64,000 bases of DNA. It comes from Mesobacillus persicus (lineage in GTDB: Bacteria; Bacillota; Bacilli; Bacillales; Cytobacillaceae). The position numbers and the translations under genes are program-made. Under the pieces are notes generated by a model that saw nothing but the letters and a program-made list of their open reading frames with translations, made no database searches and was not told the DNA's origin. Below, piece after piece: positions 7,636 to 55,613 of the stretch. Within the stretch, counting starts at the first letter, position 1, and each line of letters starts with the position of its first letter. The DNA lies in the NCBI RefSeq assembly GCF_900109925.1, contig NZ_FOBW01000001.1:1-64000 (forward strand). Reading direction: 5' to 3'.

Positions 7636-8210
7636 CCGAGGAAAATAAACGTCAAGCCTATTTAGGCTGGAATGATTCTCCGCTTCTCTTCGAAGAAAAA
7701 GAGAGGTTATCTAAATTGCAGCTTAGAGATGAAATGGTTTTTTCAAGTGATTTAGGTAGATGCTTGACGACCGCTGCCATTCTATTTCCTCGTACAACAC
7801 CCGAAATAATAACAGAATTGCGTGAACTGCATTTTGGGGAATGGGAAGGGAAGACCTATTCAGAGTTAGTTCAGGATATTCTCTATGAACAATGGCTGAA
7901 CGATTTTTATTCCGTAAGGCCACCTGAGGGTGAATCATTTCAGGAATTTGCTCTACGAGTAAATGGTGGTTGGGAGAAGGTAAAGAAGGACTTGGAAGAG
8001 AATAATCAGACTAGAGCTACAATCATTACCCATGGGGGAGTGATTAAATATTTATTGTCGCAACTTGCTCCAGAAGAGAAGGAGTTTCACGATTGGAAGG
8101 TTCCTCATGGAAATGGATTTGAACTTAAGTGGAACAAAGACCAATGGAGGAGGGGAGAGCGTTGCATTTCGTTACAGGAGGTGCCTTTAATGGCAAATCC
8201 AAATGGGTGA
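7593..8210 (+). CDS. cobC: CobC-like alpha-ribazole / adenosylcobalamin phosphatase (histidine phosphatase family)
   Basis: A 205-residue phosphoglycerate-mutase-like phosphatase with the catalytic FRHGVTEEN at the N-terminus, a second arginine region FSSDLGRCLTTA, the acid region ELHFGEWEG and the second His in ITHGG. By position it should remove the 5' phosphate from cobalamin phosphate or alpha-ribazole phosphate. The start overlaps cobS; an in-frame GTG at 7605 is an alternative. A second member of the family closes the operon, so the two may divide substrates. Confidence 0.85.
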   Translation: MDDIVVITLFRHGVTEENKRQAYLGWNDSPLLFEEKERLSKLQLRDEMVFSSDLGRCLTTAAILFPRTTPEIITELRELHFGEWEGKTYSELVQDILYEQWLNDFYSVRPPEGESFQEFALRVNGGWEKVKKDLEENNQTRATIITHGGVIKYLLSQLAPEEKEFHDWKVPHGNGFELKWNKDQWRRGERCISLQEVPLMANPNG

Positions 8211-49866: not shown

Positions 49867-50472
49867 ATGTCTGATGAAAATATGAATAATCCTTATGAGT
49901 CTTTTAGACGATTAAGTGAAATGTGGGAAAAAGGCTTAAATGACCTATTGATTCAATCAATCGACAATCGTGAGTTGATTCGCATGACACAACTTGGGGT
50001 TGGGGTTCACTCAAGGTATATAGAGAGGCTAAAAAGAAATCAGGAATTGATGGCTAATATCATGAACATTCCTACTAAAAATGATGTAGCGAATGTAGCA
50101 AAGCTTACTGTACAAGCAGAAGAAAAGGTAGACACTCTCCAACAGCAAATTTGGAGTTTACAAGATAGCTTCGCTCTAGCGAATCAAGAGCAACACAAGC
50201 TTCTTGCTGAAATCATGGAATTTACCAAACAACTCCATACTGAATGGGTTCATTCGGCAAAGGATTTAGCAGAAGCTAAAAAAATCACCACCGAAATGAA
50301 GAAAATGAGGCAAGAGCTTGTAGAGGCAAGGGACTTGAAGACAAACCTTTTAGAATTAAAGCAGGAACTCATTCATTTTTCTGATCTGAAAAATGAAGTC
50401 AATGTTTTAAGAGAGCTATTGAAAAAGGAAAAAGAAGATACTGCACTAGCTGTAGCAGGTGCAAAAGAATAA
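49867..50472 (+). CDS. phaR: Class IV polyhydroxyalkanoate synthase subunit PhaR
   Basis: A 201-residue largely helical, coiled-coil protein (MGVGVHSRYIERLKRN-like stretch and a long Lys/Glu-rich tail) that pairs with PhaC in Bacillus to make the active polymer synthase on PHA granules. NPYESFRRLSEMWEKGLNDLL at the start is typical. GGGGTGAAGGG precedes the ATG. It is 21 nt upstream of phaC; phaB, which usually sits between them in Bacillus, is missing. Confidence 0.9.
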   Translation: MSDENMNNPYESFRRLSEMWEKGLNDLLIQSIDNRELIRMTQLGVGVHSRYIERLKRNQELMANIMNIPTKNDVANVAKLTVQAEEKVDTLQQQIWSLQDSFALANQEQHKLLAEIMEFTKQLHTEWVHSAKDLAEAKKITTEMKKMRQELVEARDLKTNLLELKQELIHFSDLKNEVNVLRELLKKEKEDTALAVAGAKE

Positions 50473-50493
50473 CCTGAGGGGGAGTAGGACGGT

Positions 50494-51549
50494 ATGGCGG
50501 CAATCACTCGATTCAAACTACCAGTAACGAATTTAGAAACAGAACGTGAACGTTGGCATCAACTTTATAATGTTTTACATGAGCCAAAGCCTGAAATCAA
50601 GTCTTCACCTAGACAGTCAGTCTGGAGGAAGAACAAGTCAGTTTTATGGTTTTATCCGGCTCAAGAGAAAAAACACGATGTTCCTATCTTTATGGTTTAT
50701 TCGCTTCTAAACAAACCGTATATCCTTGATATTTCAGAGGAAACTAGCGTGATTGGAAACCTCAATAAACAGGGGTATGATGTCTATATGTTTGATTGGG
50801 GTTCGCCGGGGCTAGAAGACAAGGGAATAACCTTGGATAACTACGTTCTAGATTATTTGGAAATGGCAGTTAGGGTAGCTTTACGACATGCTAAAGCCCC
50901 GGAGATTTCCTTAGTTGGTTACTGTATAGGTGGGACTTTGTCGGCTATGCTGGCTTCGATAACAGATCTGCCAATTAAAAATTTAGTTTTAGCAGCTGTT
51001 CCCATTGACTATAGCGATTTTATTTTACCTGATAAATGGGTTAAAGCCATGCATGACGGAACCTTAAGTCTGGATCGAATGATTGATGCTTACGAAGTTA
51101 TCCCTTCCGAATTTTTGTATACAACCTTTTTAGCTCTACAGGGTTTCAACATCGGACCTAATGTTAACTTAGTTACTCGGGCACATGATAGAAAATATGT
51201 TGATAAATGGCGGAGAATGGACAAGTGGACGAGGGATGCGGTTACGTTTTCGGGAGCTGCCTTCAAGCAAATGCTAAATGACTTATACAAAGATAACAAG
51301 CTTGTTAAAGGAGAAATGACTCTTGCTGGAAAGAAAGTAGACTTAAGCAAAATTAAATGCAGCCTTCTTGTCATTACGTCTACCAGGGATGAGCTAGTAC
51401 TAGAAAGCCAGAGTCTCCCTGTTATGGAGCTTGTTTCAAGTGAAGACAAAACGTATCAGCTTGTGGAAGCTGGACATGTGTCAATTTGTTTGACAGGCCA
51501 GTTCGCTTTTGCTGTTGAACCATGGCTTTCTACTCGGTCCAAGTTTTAG
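50494..51549 (+). CDS. phaC: Class IV polyhydroxyalkanoate synthase PhaC
   Basis: A 351-residue alpha/beta-hydrolase-type polymerase. The lipase-like box is GYCIGG with catalytic Cys144; the catalytic Asp is in ITSTRDELV and the His in AGHVSICL. It polymerises (R)-3-hydroxyacyl-CoA into storage polyester together with PhaR. The residue SYLLNKPYILDI-like (VYSLLNKPYILDI) and FDWGSPG are family marks. GGGGGAG precedes the ATG. A terminator follows. Confidence 0.94.
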   Translation: MAAITRFKLPVTNLETERERWHQLYNVLHEPKPEIKSSPRQSVWRKNKSVLWFYPAQEKKHDVPIFMVYSLLNKPYILDISEETSVIGNLNKQGYDVYMFDWGSPGLEDKGITLDNYVLDYLEMAVRVALRHAKAPEISLVGYCIGGTLSAMLASITDLPIKNLVLAAVPIDYSDFILPDKWVKAMHDGTLSLDRMIDAYEVIPSEFLYTTFLALQGFNIGPNVNLVTRAHDRKYVDKWRRMDKWTRDAVTFSGAAFKQMLNDLYKDNKLVKGEMTLAGKKVDLSKIKCSLLVITSTRDELVLESQSLPVMELVSSEDKTYQLVEAGHVSICLTGQFAFAVEPWLSTRSKF

Positions 51550-53439: not shown

Positions 53440-53928
53440 TTAGAATGAGGTTAGAGCGATTTTTAATTTTTTAGTCGCTTCAAGCACCACTCTAATATTT
53501 TCATGATTGTTCATTTTGTGTCTAGCATGGAGCAGGACAGGTCGTACGGATTCCACCGATCGTCCAAACTCGTTCATCCACTCATATCTTGGAACCATCC
53601 AAGTATGAAAGTGGTGGGTCGTATCTTCATTATAAAAATAATAAACATGTTCGATACCTAAAACTTCCCGTTGCGCCTTCCTAATTTTCGTGATGGTATT
53701 TATATAATCAAGCTTCTCCTCATCAGTCAGTTCATCAAAACTCTTAATATGTCGTTTGGAAGCGAGGATGATTAAGCCTTTAATTGGATAGGCAACATCT
53801 TGATGGGCATGAAAATGATTGGTTTCAATCACCGCACCTCCATCTGGCTTAACCAAACCGCTAGTTAAAGCACAGCTTAGACATTCAACCTCGACCGTTT
53901 TTCCAGTTGATAAAGTAATACTTCTCAT
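53440..53928 (-). CDS. HIT-like hydrolase
   Basis: A 162-residue protein of the histidine-triad superfamily. The second half carries THHFHTWMVPRYEWM, a HxHxH-like triad variant, and YPIKGLIILASKRHIKSFDEL is the HIT-type core strand region. HIT proteins act on nucleotide conjugates. CxxC in VECLSCAL could bind metal. GGAGGGCATCGA precedes the ATG. It is a single gene. Confidence 0.82.
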   Translation of the reverse strand: MRSITLSTGKTVEVECLSCALTSGLVKPDGGAVIETNHFHAHQDVAYPIKGLIILASKRHIKSFDELTDEEKLDYINTITKIRKAQREVLGIEHVYYFYNEDTTHHFHTWMVPRYEWMNEFGRSVESVRPVLLHARHKMNNHENIRVVLEATKKLKIALTSF

Positions 53929-54432
53929 TCGATGCCCTCCTTCATTGAATTCTAGTGATTCACACTAGGCTTATTGCTGCCTTATTAATTATAATTCTTT
54001 TTTATTGAGACATTCAGTTTAATTACAACAACCTACCTCTGTATTTCTAAATATTGCTGACGTAGGCTTACTGTGAAATCCTTTATGTAAGGGTTAACTT
54101 TTTTCTGGATTTTCCTTGTTTTCTAGGACTTTTTAAATAACGCTCTTTTCGGAAGAATTCCGCTTAGTTAGTAATTTTTATAAAAAATAGCTTAGTTAGA
54201 CGGAGAAATTCCGCTTATTGACTCGAAAAACGTGAAAATGTGGCATTTTGCTTGCATAACCGGAAAATCTCCCCTTATTTACCTAGAAACGAGCTCCATT
54301 CTGTAATTAACCGGAGAACCTCCGCTTATTTTTCTTTTGCTGGTTTATCAATATTTCAAAAAGCAACAAACTTTGAGAAGAGAGCCTTAAATAAAGATTA
54401 GCAACAGTCATCTAGATTGTTAAAAAAATAAT
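53929..54432. other. Long intergenic region with degenerate repeats
   Basis: About 500 nt without a coding frame, divergent side of the HIT-like gene and upstream of the HTH-AtpD gene. Its second half holds the GGAGAA..TCCGCTTA repeats (separate entry); the first 200 nt show nothing I can name. Confidence 0.6.
54151..54328. repeat. Four copies of GGAGAAnnTCCGCTTA
   Basis: Copies at 54151 (GGAAGAATTCCGCTTA), 54202 (GGAGAAATTCCGCTTA), 54262 (GGAAAATCTCCCCTTA) and 54313 (GGAGAACCTCCGCTTA) are spaced by 51, 60 and 51 nt. Each is an imperfect palindrome (GGA..TCC) followed by GCTTA; the spacers are not alike. The last two share TAACC just before. Confidence 0.8.
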
Positions 54433-54448
54433 TACGTTTAAAAGTAAC
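54433..54448 (+). promoter_or_regulatory. Upstream 16-bp palindrome of the HTH-AtpD gene
   Basis: TTACGTTTAAAAGTAA matches the downstream palindrome at 54478-54493 in 15 of 16 positions. It is a probable operator half of a two-site array. Confidence 0.65.
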
Positions 54449-54477
54449 TACCGCTTGCTCTTTAGAGTAATATGTAT

Positions 54478-54493
54478 TACTTTTAAAAGTAAG
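54478..54493 (+). promoter_or_regulatory. Downstream 16-bp perfect palindrome at the ribosome site
   Basis: TTACTTTTAAAAGTAA is a perfect palindrome ending at the AAGGAGGGG ribosome binding site of the HTH-AtpD gene. Together with the copy 45 bp upstream it brackets the likely promoter, so autoregulation by the HTH protein is a natural proposal. Confidence 0.7.
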
Positions 54494-54505
54494 GAGGGGA
54501 ATAAA

Positions 54506-55549
54506 ATGGAAAACTTAAGATTAAATGTTCCGTTGCTAAGGCGAAGGGTACCAAATCTTACGAGTGCTGCACGTTCAGTTGGATTAAGGCCTGCAACAGT
54601 TTCAAACCTGTGTACAGGCAAAATACCAGTTGGCCGCTCCGAGGTGCGTACCTTAGTGGCACTTGCGTCATTGGCCCAATGTACTTTAGACGAGTTAATT
54701 TTGAGAGGGGAGACGGTTGAAATGATTGAAACGAAAATTAAAACATTAGATTTGTTTGCGCCTATTGTTAAAGGGGGAACGGTTGGACTTGTTGCTCGAC
54801 CAGGTATGGGGCAATTAGTTGTGCTTACTGAGTTGTTTTACAGATTAACAAGAGAAGGATATAAAACCATCTTTCTAAAACCCCAGGAAAACTATCCCGA
54901 ATTAAGTGACACGATTAGTGAAGTAGATATAGTAGTTGACTCCATTGAAAAAGCGTTTGAAGACATCAAGGCAGTCGGAGGAAGTCATGATGTGATTTTT
55001 GCTGCCGATCGGTCGCATGTTCTGACCGGAGAAATCTATGACTTGCAACAAAAGATAGAGGAAGCCGGTGTTCAATCGGTGACGACCTTCCTTCTTGATT
55101 TAAAAGGAGCGTCTGTTGATGAGGATTTACCATATGGTCCATTAGAAACATTATGGCAATTTGACGCCGACCTATCTGCTCGTCATAAATATCCAGCTGT
55201 TAACCCAATTTACTCAACATCATCCGTATTAGAAGGAGCCCACCTAGATCAAACCCATCTTACCATTCAACAAAGAGCCCAAAAACTTTTGCGCCGTTAC
55301 CGTGAATTACGTTCGCTGGTTAATGTAAAAGGGATAGACGGAATCCCGGCTTCAGAAATTCAAGTCTTCAATCGAGGGGAACGCTTAGAAGCCTACCTTA
55401 CCCAGCCATTTTATGTCGCAGAAACCTTTACAGGGCAAAAAGGAGAAAGTGTCGAGCTTGAAACGACAATTAACGATGTACGGAAGATTATAGACGGAGG
55501 GACAGATTCTAAAGAGCTTGAGAAACTGAACTTCATCGGGAGCTTATAA
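54506..55549 (+). CDS. HTH domain fused to an inactive F1-ATPase beta-subunit-like domain
   Basis: A 347-residue protein. Residues about 1-65 form an XRE-like helix-turn-helix: LTSAARSVGLRPATVSNLC and LASLAQCTLDELILRGE. Residues about 68-335 follow the AtpD nucleotide-binding and C-terminal domains in order: METKIKTLDLFAPIVKGGTVGL matches the region before the P-loop (read here from MIETKIK), then YPAVNPIYSTSSVL, RAQKLLRRYRELRSLV and FLSQPFF-like YLTQPFYVAETFTG. The P-loop GGAGVGKT is replaced by ARPGMGQL, so the Lys is gone; the catalytic Glu region is also lost. The beta-barrel domain is absent. The ATG at 54506 follows AAGGAGGGG. Probably a DNA-binding regulator using a recycled ATPase fold. 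Confidence 0.85.
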   Translation: MENLRLNVPLLRRRVPNLTSAARSVGLRPATVSNLCTGKIPVGRSEVRTLVALASLAQCTLDELILRGETVEMIETKIKTLDLFAPIVKGGTVGLVARPGMGQLVVLTELFYRLTREGYKTIFLKPQENYPELSDTISEVDIVVDSIEKAFEDIKAVGGSHDVIFAADRSHVLTGEIYDLQQKIEEAGVQSVTTFLLDLKGASVDEDLPYGPLETLWQFDADLSARHKYPAVNPIYSTSSVLEGAHLDQTHLTIQQRAQKLLRRYRELRSLVNVKGIDGIPASEIQVFNRGERLEAYLTQPFYVAETFTGQKGESVELETTINDVRKIIDGGTDSKELEKLNFIGSL

Positions 55550-55570: not shown

Positions 55571-55613
55571 ACCATGAAAATGGAAGGTGCCAGGCACCTT
55601 CCATTTTCATGGT
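55571..55613. repeat. Palindromic GTGCC repeat, copy 6 (21-bp arms, 1-nt centre)
   Basis: 55571-55591 and 55593-55613 are exact reverse complements around A55592, with GGTGCCAGGCACC at the centre. It lies between the converging HTH-AtpD and ALDH genes. Confidence 0.9.

Follow-up and report, generated by a model that had tools for sequence, protein, structure and literature searches.

A helix-turn-helix protein built on a pseudo-F1-ATPase β-subunit body in Bacillales and a candidate operator array at its own promoter

The window analysed here is a stretch of 64,000 nucleotides from Mesobacillus persicus (contig NZ_FOBW01000001.1, positions 1 to 64,000), and one of its genes, at positions 54506–55549, encodes a protein in which a helix-turn-helix (HTH) domain is joined to the nucleotide-binding and C-terminal parts of the F1-ATPase β subunit (AtpD). 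Three palindromes are arrayed over the likely promoter of this gene, and similar arrays accompany its relatives. The protein is probably a cooperative autoregulator, and more specifically an autorepressor, whose pseudo-ATPase body would act as a ligand-binding or oligomerisation module. The open reading frame is intact and uninterrupted, and the gene and its product have the following features.

54506–55549, plus strand: HTH-pseudo-F1-β gene, 347 amino acids (sequence, profile and PDB comparisons).
54493–54497, plus strand: ribosome-binding site GGAGG, with the ATG eight bases on (sequence).
54506–54703, plus strand: HTH domain, residues 1–66 (Pfam, family alignment, structure model).
54704–55225, plus strand: pseudo nucleotide-binding domain of F1 β, residues 67–240 (AtpD profile, PDB alignments, profile-profile comparison).
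54794–54817, plus strand: altered P-loop ARPGMGQL, residues 97–104 (family alignment).
55007–55009, plus strand: kept Walker B Asp, D168 (alignment, profile-profile comparison).
55226–55546, plus strand: C-terminal helical domain of F1 β, residues 241–347, with most DELSEED charges lost (Pfam, TIGR01039, alignment, profile-profile comparison).
55571–55613, plus strand: hairpin of 43 bases with a 20-bp stem, directly 3' of the stop codon (folding z −6.7); a possible transcript end of the gene, absent from the list produced by the terminator scan.

The AtpD model TIGR01039 matches the protein in two stretches in the NCBIfam search (118.4 bits, E 3.5e-34), with a score far under the AtpD cut-off of 462.85 bits. 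The NCBIfam matches comprise F1, V/A, FliI, type III and F1-like gliding ATPases, together with a weak match to a DNA helicase (E 0.006). The top sequence matches in the PDB are F1 β chains (best E 4.2e-29), and alignments with PDB chains place the two AtpD-like stretches in the AtpD order. Consistently, a profile-profile comparison of 70 family proteins with 26 AtpD sequences gives a probability of 99.9 with an E-value of 7.9e-33. In Pfam, ATP-synt_VA_C scores above its cut-off and ATP-synt_ab slightly below. All of the HTH models in Pfam score below threshold (HTH_26, 17.0 bits against 22, E 0.007; HTH_31, 16.7 against 27). The structure model has five helices at residues 8–64, in a block with pLDDT values of 65–86, and GLRPATVSNLCTGK in the recognition segment of the HTH is invariant or almost so in the family alignment. 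The N-terminal β-barrel of AtpD is absent, and both the alignments and the model show the HTH in its place. An earlier, sequence-only reading of this DNA had described an HTH joined to F1-β parts in the AtpD order with the barrel missing, and these comparisons bear out that description.

The model built from family sequences alone has a pLDDT of 66.5 and a pTM of 0.40, with a poor middle part; with one AtpD row added to the alignment, these values are 70.3 and 0.51, and the middle is still of low confidence. In the Foldseek search with the family-only model, the best 50 matches are solely F1- or F1-like (G1) ATPase chains, mostly β, at low TM-scores on the query (0.31–0.37). With the AtpD-row model, the TM-scores on the query are 0.55–0.62 among the best 50; this result is partly circular because an AtpD row was in the alignment, whereas the family-only result is not. 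Therefore, the AtpD profile, PDB, profile-profile and Foldseek matches together indicate that the protein is an F1-β derivative with an HTH replacing the barrel.

The P-loop, previously read as ARPGMGQL instead of GGAGVGKT, is found as such at residues 97–104. Its Lys is replaced by Gln and the following Thr by Leu, Ile or Val in 70/70 proteins, so that no relative has an intact Walker A motif, while residue 98 is an invariant Arg in all 70. The GERTREGND loop is gone, and so is the one that follows Walker B. The earlier description needs one correction: the Walker B Asp, which had been missed, is kept as D168 in 69/70 (DVIFAAD versus DVLFFMD in AtpD), the profile-profile comparison correcting the MAFFT alignment, which puts the Asp elsewhere. 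A Glu at the catalytic position is not invariant, being present in 3/70 at residue 128 and in 53/70 at residue 127, where the alignment is ambiguous. Most of the DELSEED charges are gone from the family alignment, and the part shared with AtpD is about 50 residues shorter, the difference coming from the nucleotide domain. The PAV-P and QPF-VAE motifs are kept as in AtpD. The loss of the P-loop Lys and Thr throughout the family suggests that the ATPase is dead. An active nucleotide hydrolase, in which Gln would be tolerated in place of the P-loop Lys, or an autoactivator would fit the nearly invariant Walker B Asp; the missing Lys and Thr and the variable catalytic Glu argue against it, and we consider it extremely unlikely.

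The residues that we take to form the adenine pocket of F1 β (Y345, F418, A421, F424 and T425) correspond to family columns with Tyr/Phe in 70/70, Phe in 70/70, Ala in 68/70, Phe/Tyr in 69/70 and Thr/Ser in 70/70, respectively. The C-terminal end is well conserved in general, its last part keeping 15 of 29 columns that are conserved in AtpD versus 44 of 203 overall, and hence the retention of the pocket is not independent evidence. The pseudo-β body may hold an adenine ligand without hydrolysing it, and the nucleotide sensing suggested earlier would be compatible with the pocket residues and the Walker B Asp.

A genome scan gives 71 loci, 69 of which hold full-length relatives at 66–86% identity, all from Bacillales; the gene is widely conserved. 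These relatives and the copy at 54506–55549 make up the 70 proteins analysed; a partial copy (L071) and an ordinary AtpD of Bdellovibrio (L074) stand outside the counts. The relatives come from Mesobacillus, Neobacillus, Cytobacillus, Sporosarcina, Lysinibacillus, Halobacillus, Thalassobacillus, Oceanobacillus, Ornithinibacillus, Gottfriedia, Bhargavaea, Paenibacillus and others, and an annotated relative is called a hypothetical protein. The distribution is patchy: a search for the N-terminal part matches 63 of 299 genomes of the order, spread over 19 family labels, once per genome and in one case in a broken copy; among 398 genomes of the phylum, three have a match, two of these being the source genome and a genome of the same family. 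Diverged copies with 55–59% identity (L114, L115 and a Paenibacillus plasmid copy) each carry two sites and still have the MGQL loop; MGQL is also present in a copy from another class (L127), which shows one site only. Broken or partial copies occur in nature (L102, L071 and G248:C145:63217-63390) and suggest repeated gene loss. Across ten selected pairs of relatives, the HTH, nucleotide and C-terminal parts all show dN below dS, with a ratio of about 0.3 or less wherever dS can be estimated, dS being saturated in some pairs. The fastest-evolving part is residues 117–190, where the mean majority share in the family alignment is 0.61. The dN/dS values and the residues invariant across the family rule out a decaying relic. 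In a tree with AtpD, the family sits on a single very long branch, and the supports near its attachment are low (15 and 50, taken after re-rooting, with the AtpD of the source genome present twice).

The sequence-only reading had pointed to the DNA at 54433–54493 as a likely binding site, and this coincides with an array of three TTRC-N8-GTAA palindromes 5' of the gene, at 54432, 54455 and 54477. The putative promoter elements lie within the same array.

54432–54447, plus strand: candidate operator site O1, TTACGTTTAAAAGTAA, 5' of the likely −35 (palindrome search, comparison of loci).
54455–54470, plus strand: candidate operator site O2, TTGCTCTTTAGAGTAA, whose first hexamer TTGCTC (54455–54460) is the likely −35 (palindrome search).
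54477–54492, plus strand: candidate operator site O3, TTACTTTTAAAAGTAA, which holds the likely −10, TACTTT (54478–54483) (palindrome search).

The likely −35 and −10 are separated by 17 bp, and the counterpart of the −10 is TACTAT in many relatives; the TTGCTC/TACTTT pair is absent from the list of the consensus promoter scan. Exact TTRC-N8-GTAA sites number 153 within 150 bp 5' of the 70 genes, against a background of 0.008 per 150 bp in the rest of these loci. When one mismatch is allowed, the spacings are mostly 21–23, 44–45 and 66–67 bp, and within 700 bp upstream, pairs 21–24 bp apart are found in 69/70 loci and triples in 52/70, as against 9/1907 and 0/1907 control windows, respectively. 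The sole locus without a pair lies on a contig that has just 51 bases upstream of the gene. In several of the pairs of relatives compared, silent positions are close to saturation, so that selection is the likely reason why the array is kept, although the relatives are not independent of one another.

The placement of the array varies in two groups of relatives. In three Lederbergia loci (L030, L032 and L033), the array lies 361–638 bp upstream with a spacing of 22–24 bp, and the −35, TTGACA or TTGACG, is at the O2 position. A small open reading frame ending in RIxISIEIQ is seen in each of these loci (−234 to −36 in L030, −242 to −35 in L032 and −199 to −16 in L033, relative to the gene start); being situated downstream of the operator array and ahead of the gene, it may be co-transcribed. 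In Gottfriedia-like loci (L046, L049, L050, L057, L059 and L062), the −10 is free of sites, a site at the −35, where there is one, does not have the inner consensus, and two good sites are left upstream. Such a layout would also fit activation, and these mostly upstream sites are a second point in favour of the hydrolase or autoactivator.

These observations lead to a plausible model of cooperative autoregulation through the candidate operator at 54432–54492. Dimers of the N-terminal XRE-like HTH would sit next to one another on TTAC-N8-GTAA palindromes, approximately on the same face of the helix, and in most relatives two to four such palindromes, about two helical turns apart, would overlap both the −35 and the −10 of the protein's own gene. 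Because the sites cover these elements, bound protein would be expected to shut off its own transcription cooperatively, and repression with a steep response is preferred to activation. The pseudo-β body would supply the dimer–dimer contacts, most likely as an oligomerisation module, and would gate DNA binding, probably via an adenine-containing ligand and without hydrolysis. A more elaborate oligomer, an F1-like or mixed ring in which six HTHs would sit on the six half-sites of the three palindromes and subunit exchange or the nucleotide state would open the ring, seems very unlikely; if it were true, transcription would be switched in direct response to energy charge or to free F1 subunits.

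The search for further targets bears on how far this autoregulation extends. The source genome has a single two-site array, the one at the 54506–55549 gene. Looser single sites there amount to 15 matches, including five at the gene itself, versus 19 for the reversed control and thus no excess, and the genes adjoining the stray sites are unrelated and share no visible theme. Of the 39 rows listed in the 151-genome family survey, 29 arrays were examined in their context, 19 directly upstream of a relative and 10 without one; the rest are the own copy, second rows and further places. Across 63 gene-bearing genomes (one with a broken copy), single TTACNYTWWARNGTAA sites number 120 in the forward pattern and 128 in the reversed control, even though the own promoters alone contribute 51 sites of the TTACNYTWWARNGTAA type in 70 loci. 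A wider regulon, sought by two-site arrays and by single sites, was rejected, as neither exceeds its reversed-pattern controls. One-component regulators mostly control more than their own genes, and the protein might be a wider regulator that acts on its other targets through sites that are weaker or arranged in another way; the genome-wide patterns were exact only and can miss weak sites, so that a small wider regulon is conceivable. With the forward counts no higher than the control, we judge such a regulator to be quite unlikely.

Regulation of the atp operon was likewise rejected, since no array stands before the operon in a 19-kb stretch (L076). This stretch has one exact TTRC-N8-GTAA site (7890–7905), which lies about 70 bp beyond atpC, is devoid of the inner consensus and has weaker sites only around it; the genes about 500 bp after it are presumably nuo genes. 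One loose pair, with one mismatch allowed, lies inside a gene. The genuine atpD of the source genome is on contig C36, and the 54506–55549 gene is not in the atp operon. The earlier proposal of docking to F1 finds no backing in these results, with neither an array at the atp operon nor a neighbour common to most loci. In another reading, the HTH would serve only to hold the protein at a steady level, in the way that ParA or antitoxins control their own genes, while the pseudo-β body would do the real work on a partner protein such as free F1 subunits. This would agree with the absence of a detected operator target beyond the own promoter and with selection on the C-terminal domain; the loss of most DELSEED charges and of the loop after Walker B is against it, as is the lack of a conserved neighbour, the most shared neighbour cluster being of a generic type and present in 13/71 loci. 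We regard this alternative as unlikely and prefer the cooperative autoregulator.

Compared with AtpD, the protein has the same order and sequence relationship of the nucleotide-binding and C-terminal domains, the Walker B Asp and the adenine-pocket residues; AtpD differs in having the barrel, the canonical Walker A GGAGVGKT and DELSEED, and in having no HTH. PurR of Bacillus subtilis combines an HTH with an inactive phosphoribosyltransferase fold, which has a nucleotide precursor as its ligand, and it controls a broad purine regulon. It thus resembles the present protein in joining an HTH to an inactive enzyme fold and differs in the fold itself and in the breadth of the regulon. MocR proteins join an HTH to an aminotransferase-like sensor and so reuse an enzyme fold in a one-component regulator (PMC5320631); their HTH is of the GntR type, their fold binds PLP and they control metabolic genes.

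The nearest working parallel is type Ia ParA of plasmid F, which carries an N-terminal HTH on a P-loop ATPase body and of which three dimers bind cooperatively over its own −35 and −10 in the apo or ADP-bound state (PMC8465637). Both proteins thus pair an HTH with a P-loop-type body, and coverage of its own promoter by three ParA dimers matches the arrangement proposed here. ParA, as described there, differs in its P-loop family, its operon with ParB, its centromere and its inverted hexamers spaced 28 bp apart. A ParA-type P-loop was not found in the NCBIfam search, nor a recurrent neighbour such as a ParB partner gene in the 71 neighbourhoods. NrdR senses nucleotides through an ATP-cone, a mobile domain found also in the enzyme it regulates, and its oligomers bind paired boxes in helical phase, often at its own promoter (PMC9110341, PMC12051234). 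The likeness lies in nucleotide-gated oligomers on phased boxes; the differences are a Zn-ribbon joined to the ATP-cone, ribonucleotide reductase genes as targets and an unrelated fold. The HTH-pseudo-F1-β protein is a member of neither ParA nor NrdR and can be filed among the enzyme-fold one-component regulators. Such regulators are known, and the literature search found none on a rotary-ATPase catalytic subunit and no description of an HTH–F1-β fusion among its best matches, most subscription journals lying outside its scope. The fixed non-canonical P-loop and the precisely defined own operator make the family a ready test system for two questions: whether a rotary-ATPase subunit can become a transcriptional switch that responds to nucleotides, and what signal the cell would read through it.

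A mobile or phage origin was rejected: PADLOC and the viral contigs give no match, and the phage matches listed look like ordinary AtpD. PHROGs gives one weak match to a regulator (E 0.004). The best 15 of 19 phage records have less than 29% identity over at most residues 60–347, and the four annotated ones among these 15 are named ATP synthase β. Plasmid records with a match number 110; among the best 15 of these, one, on a Paenibacillus megaplasmid, is a true relative with 54.7% identity. Beside this plasmid copy (L188, 131–7687) there are an ABC transporter and two pairs of FAD-binding protein and ferredoxin genes, a set not apparent at the other Paenibacillus loci L056 and L065. About 3 kb upstream of the 54506–55549 gene, at 49867–51549, lie a coiled-coil gene, open to a phasin- or PhaR-like reading, and a PhaC-like gene, which matches Pfam PhaC_N at the cut-off; these two are not among the neighbour clusters common to six or more loci. 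The gene adjoining the 54506–55549 gene is divergent and encodes a HIT-domain-like protein (53440–53928; E 0.007, under the cut-off). Between these two genes, at 54150–54328, there are four hairpin-like copies of CGGARAAWTCCGCTTA with a spacing of 51–60 bp.
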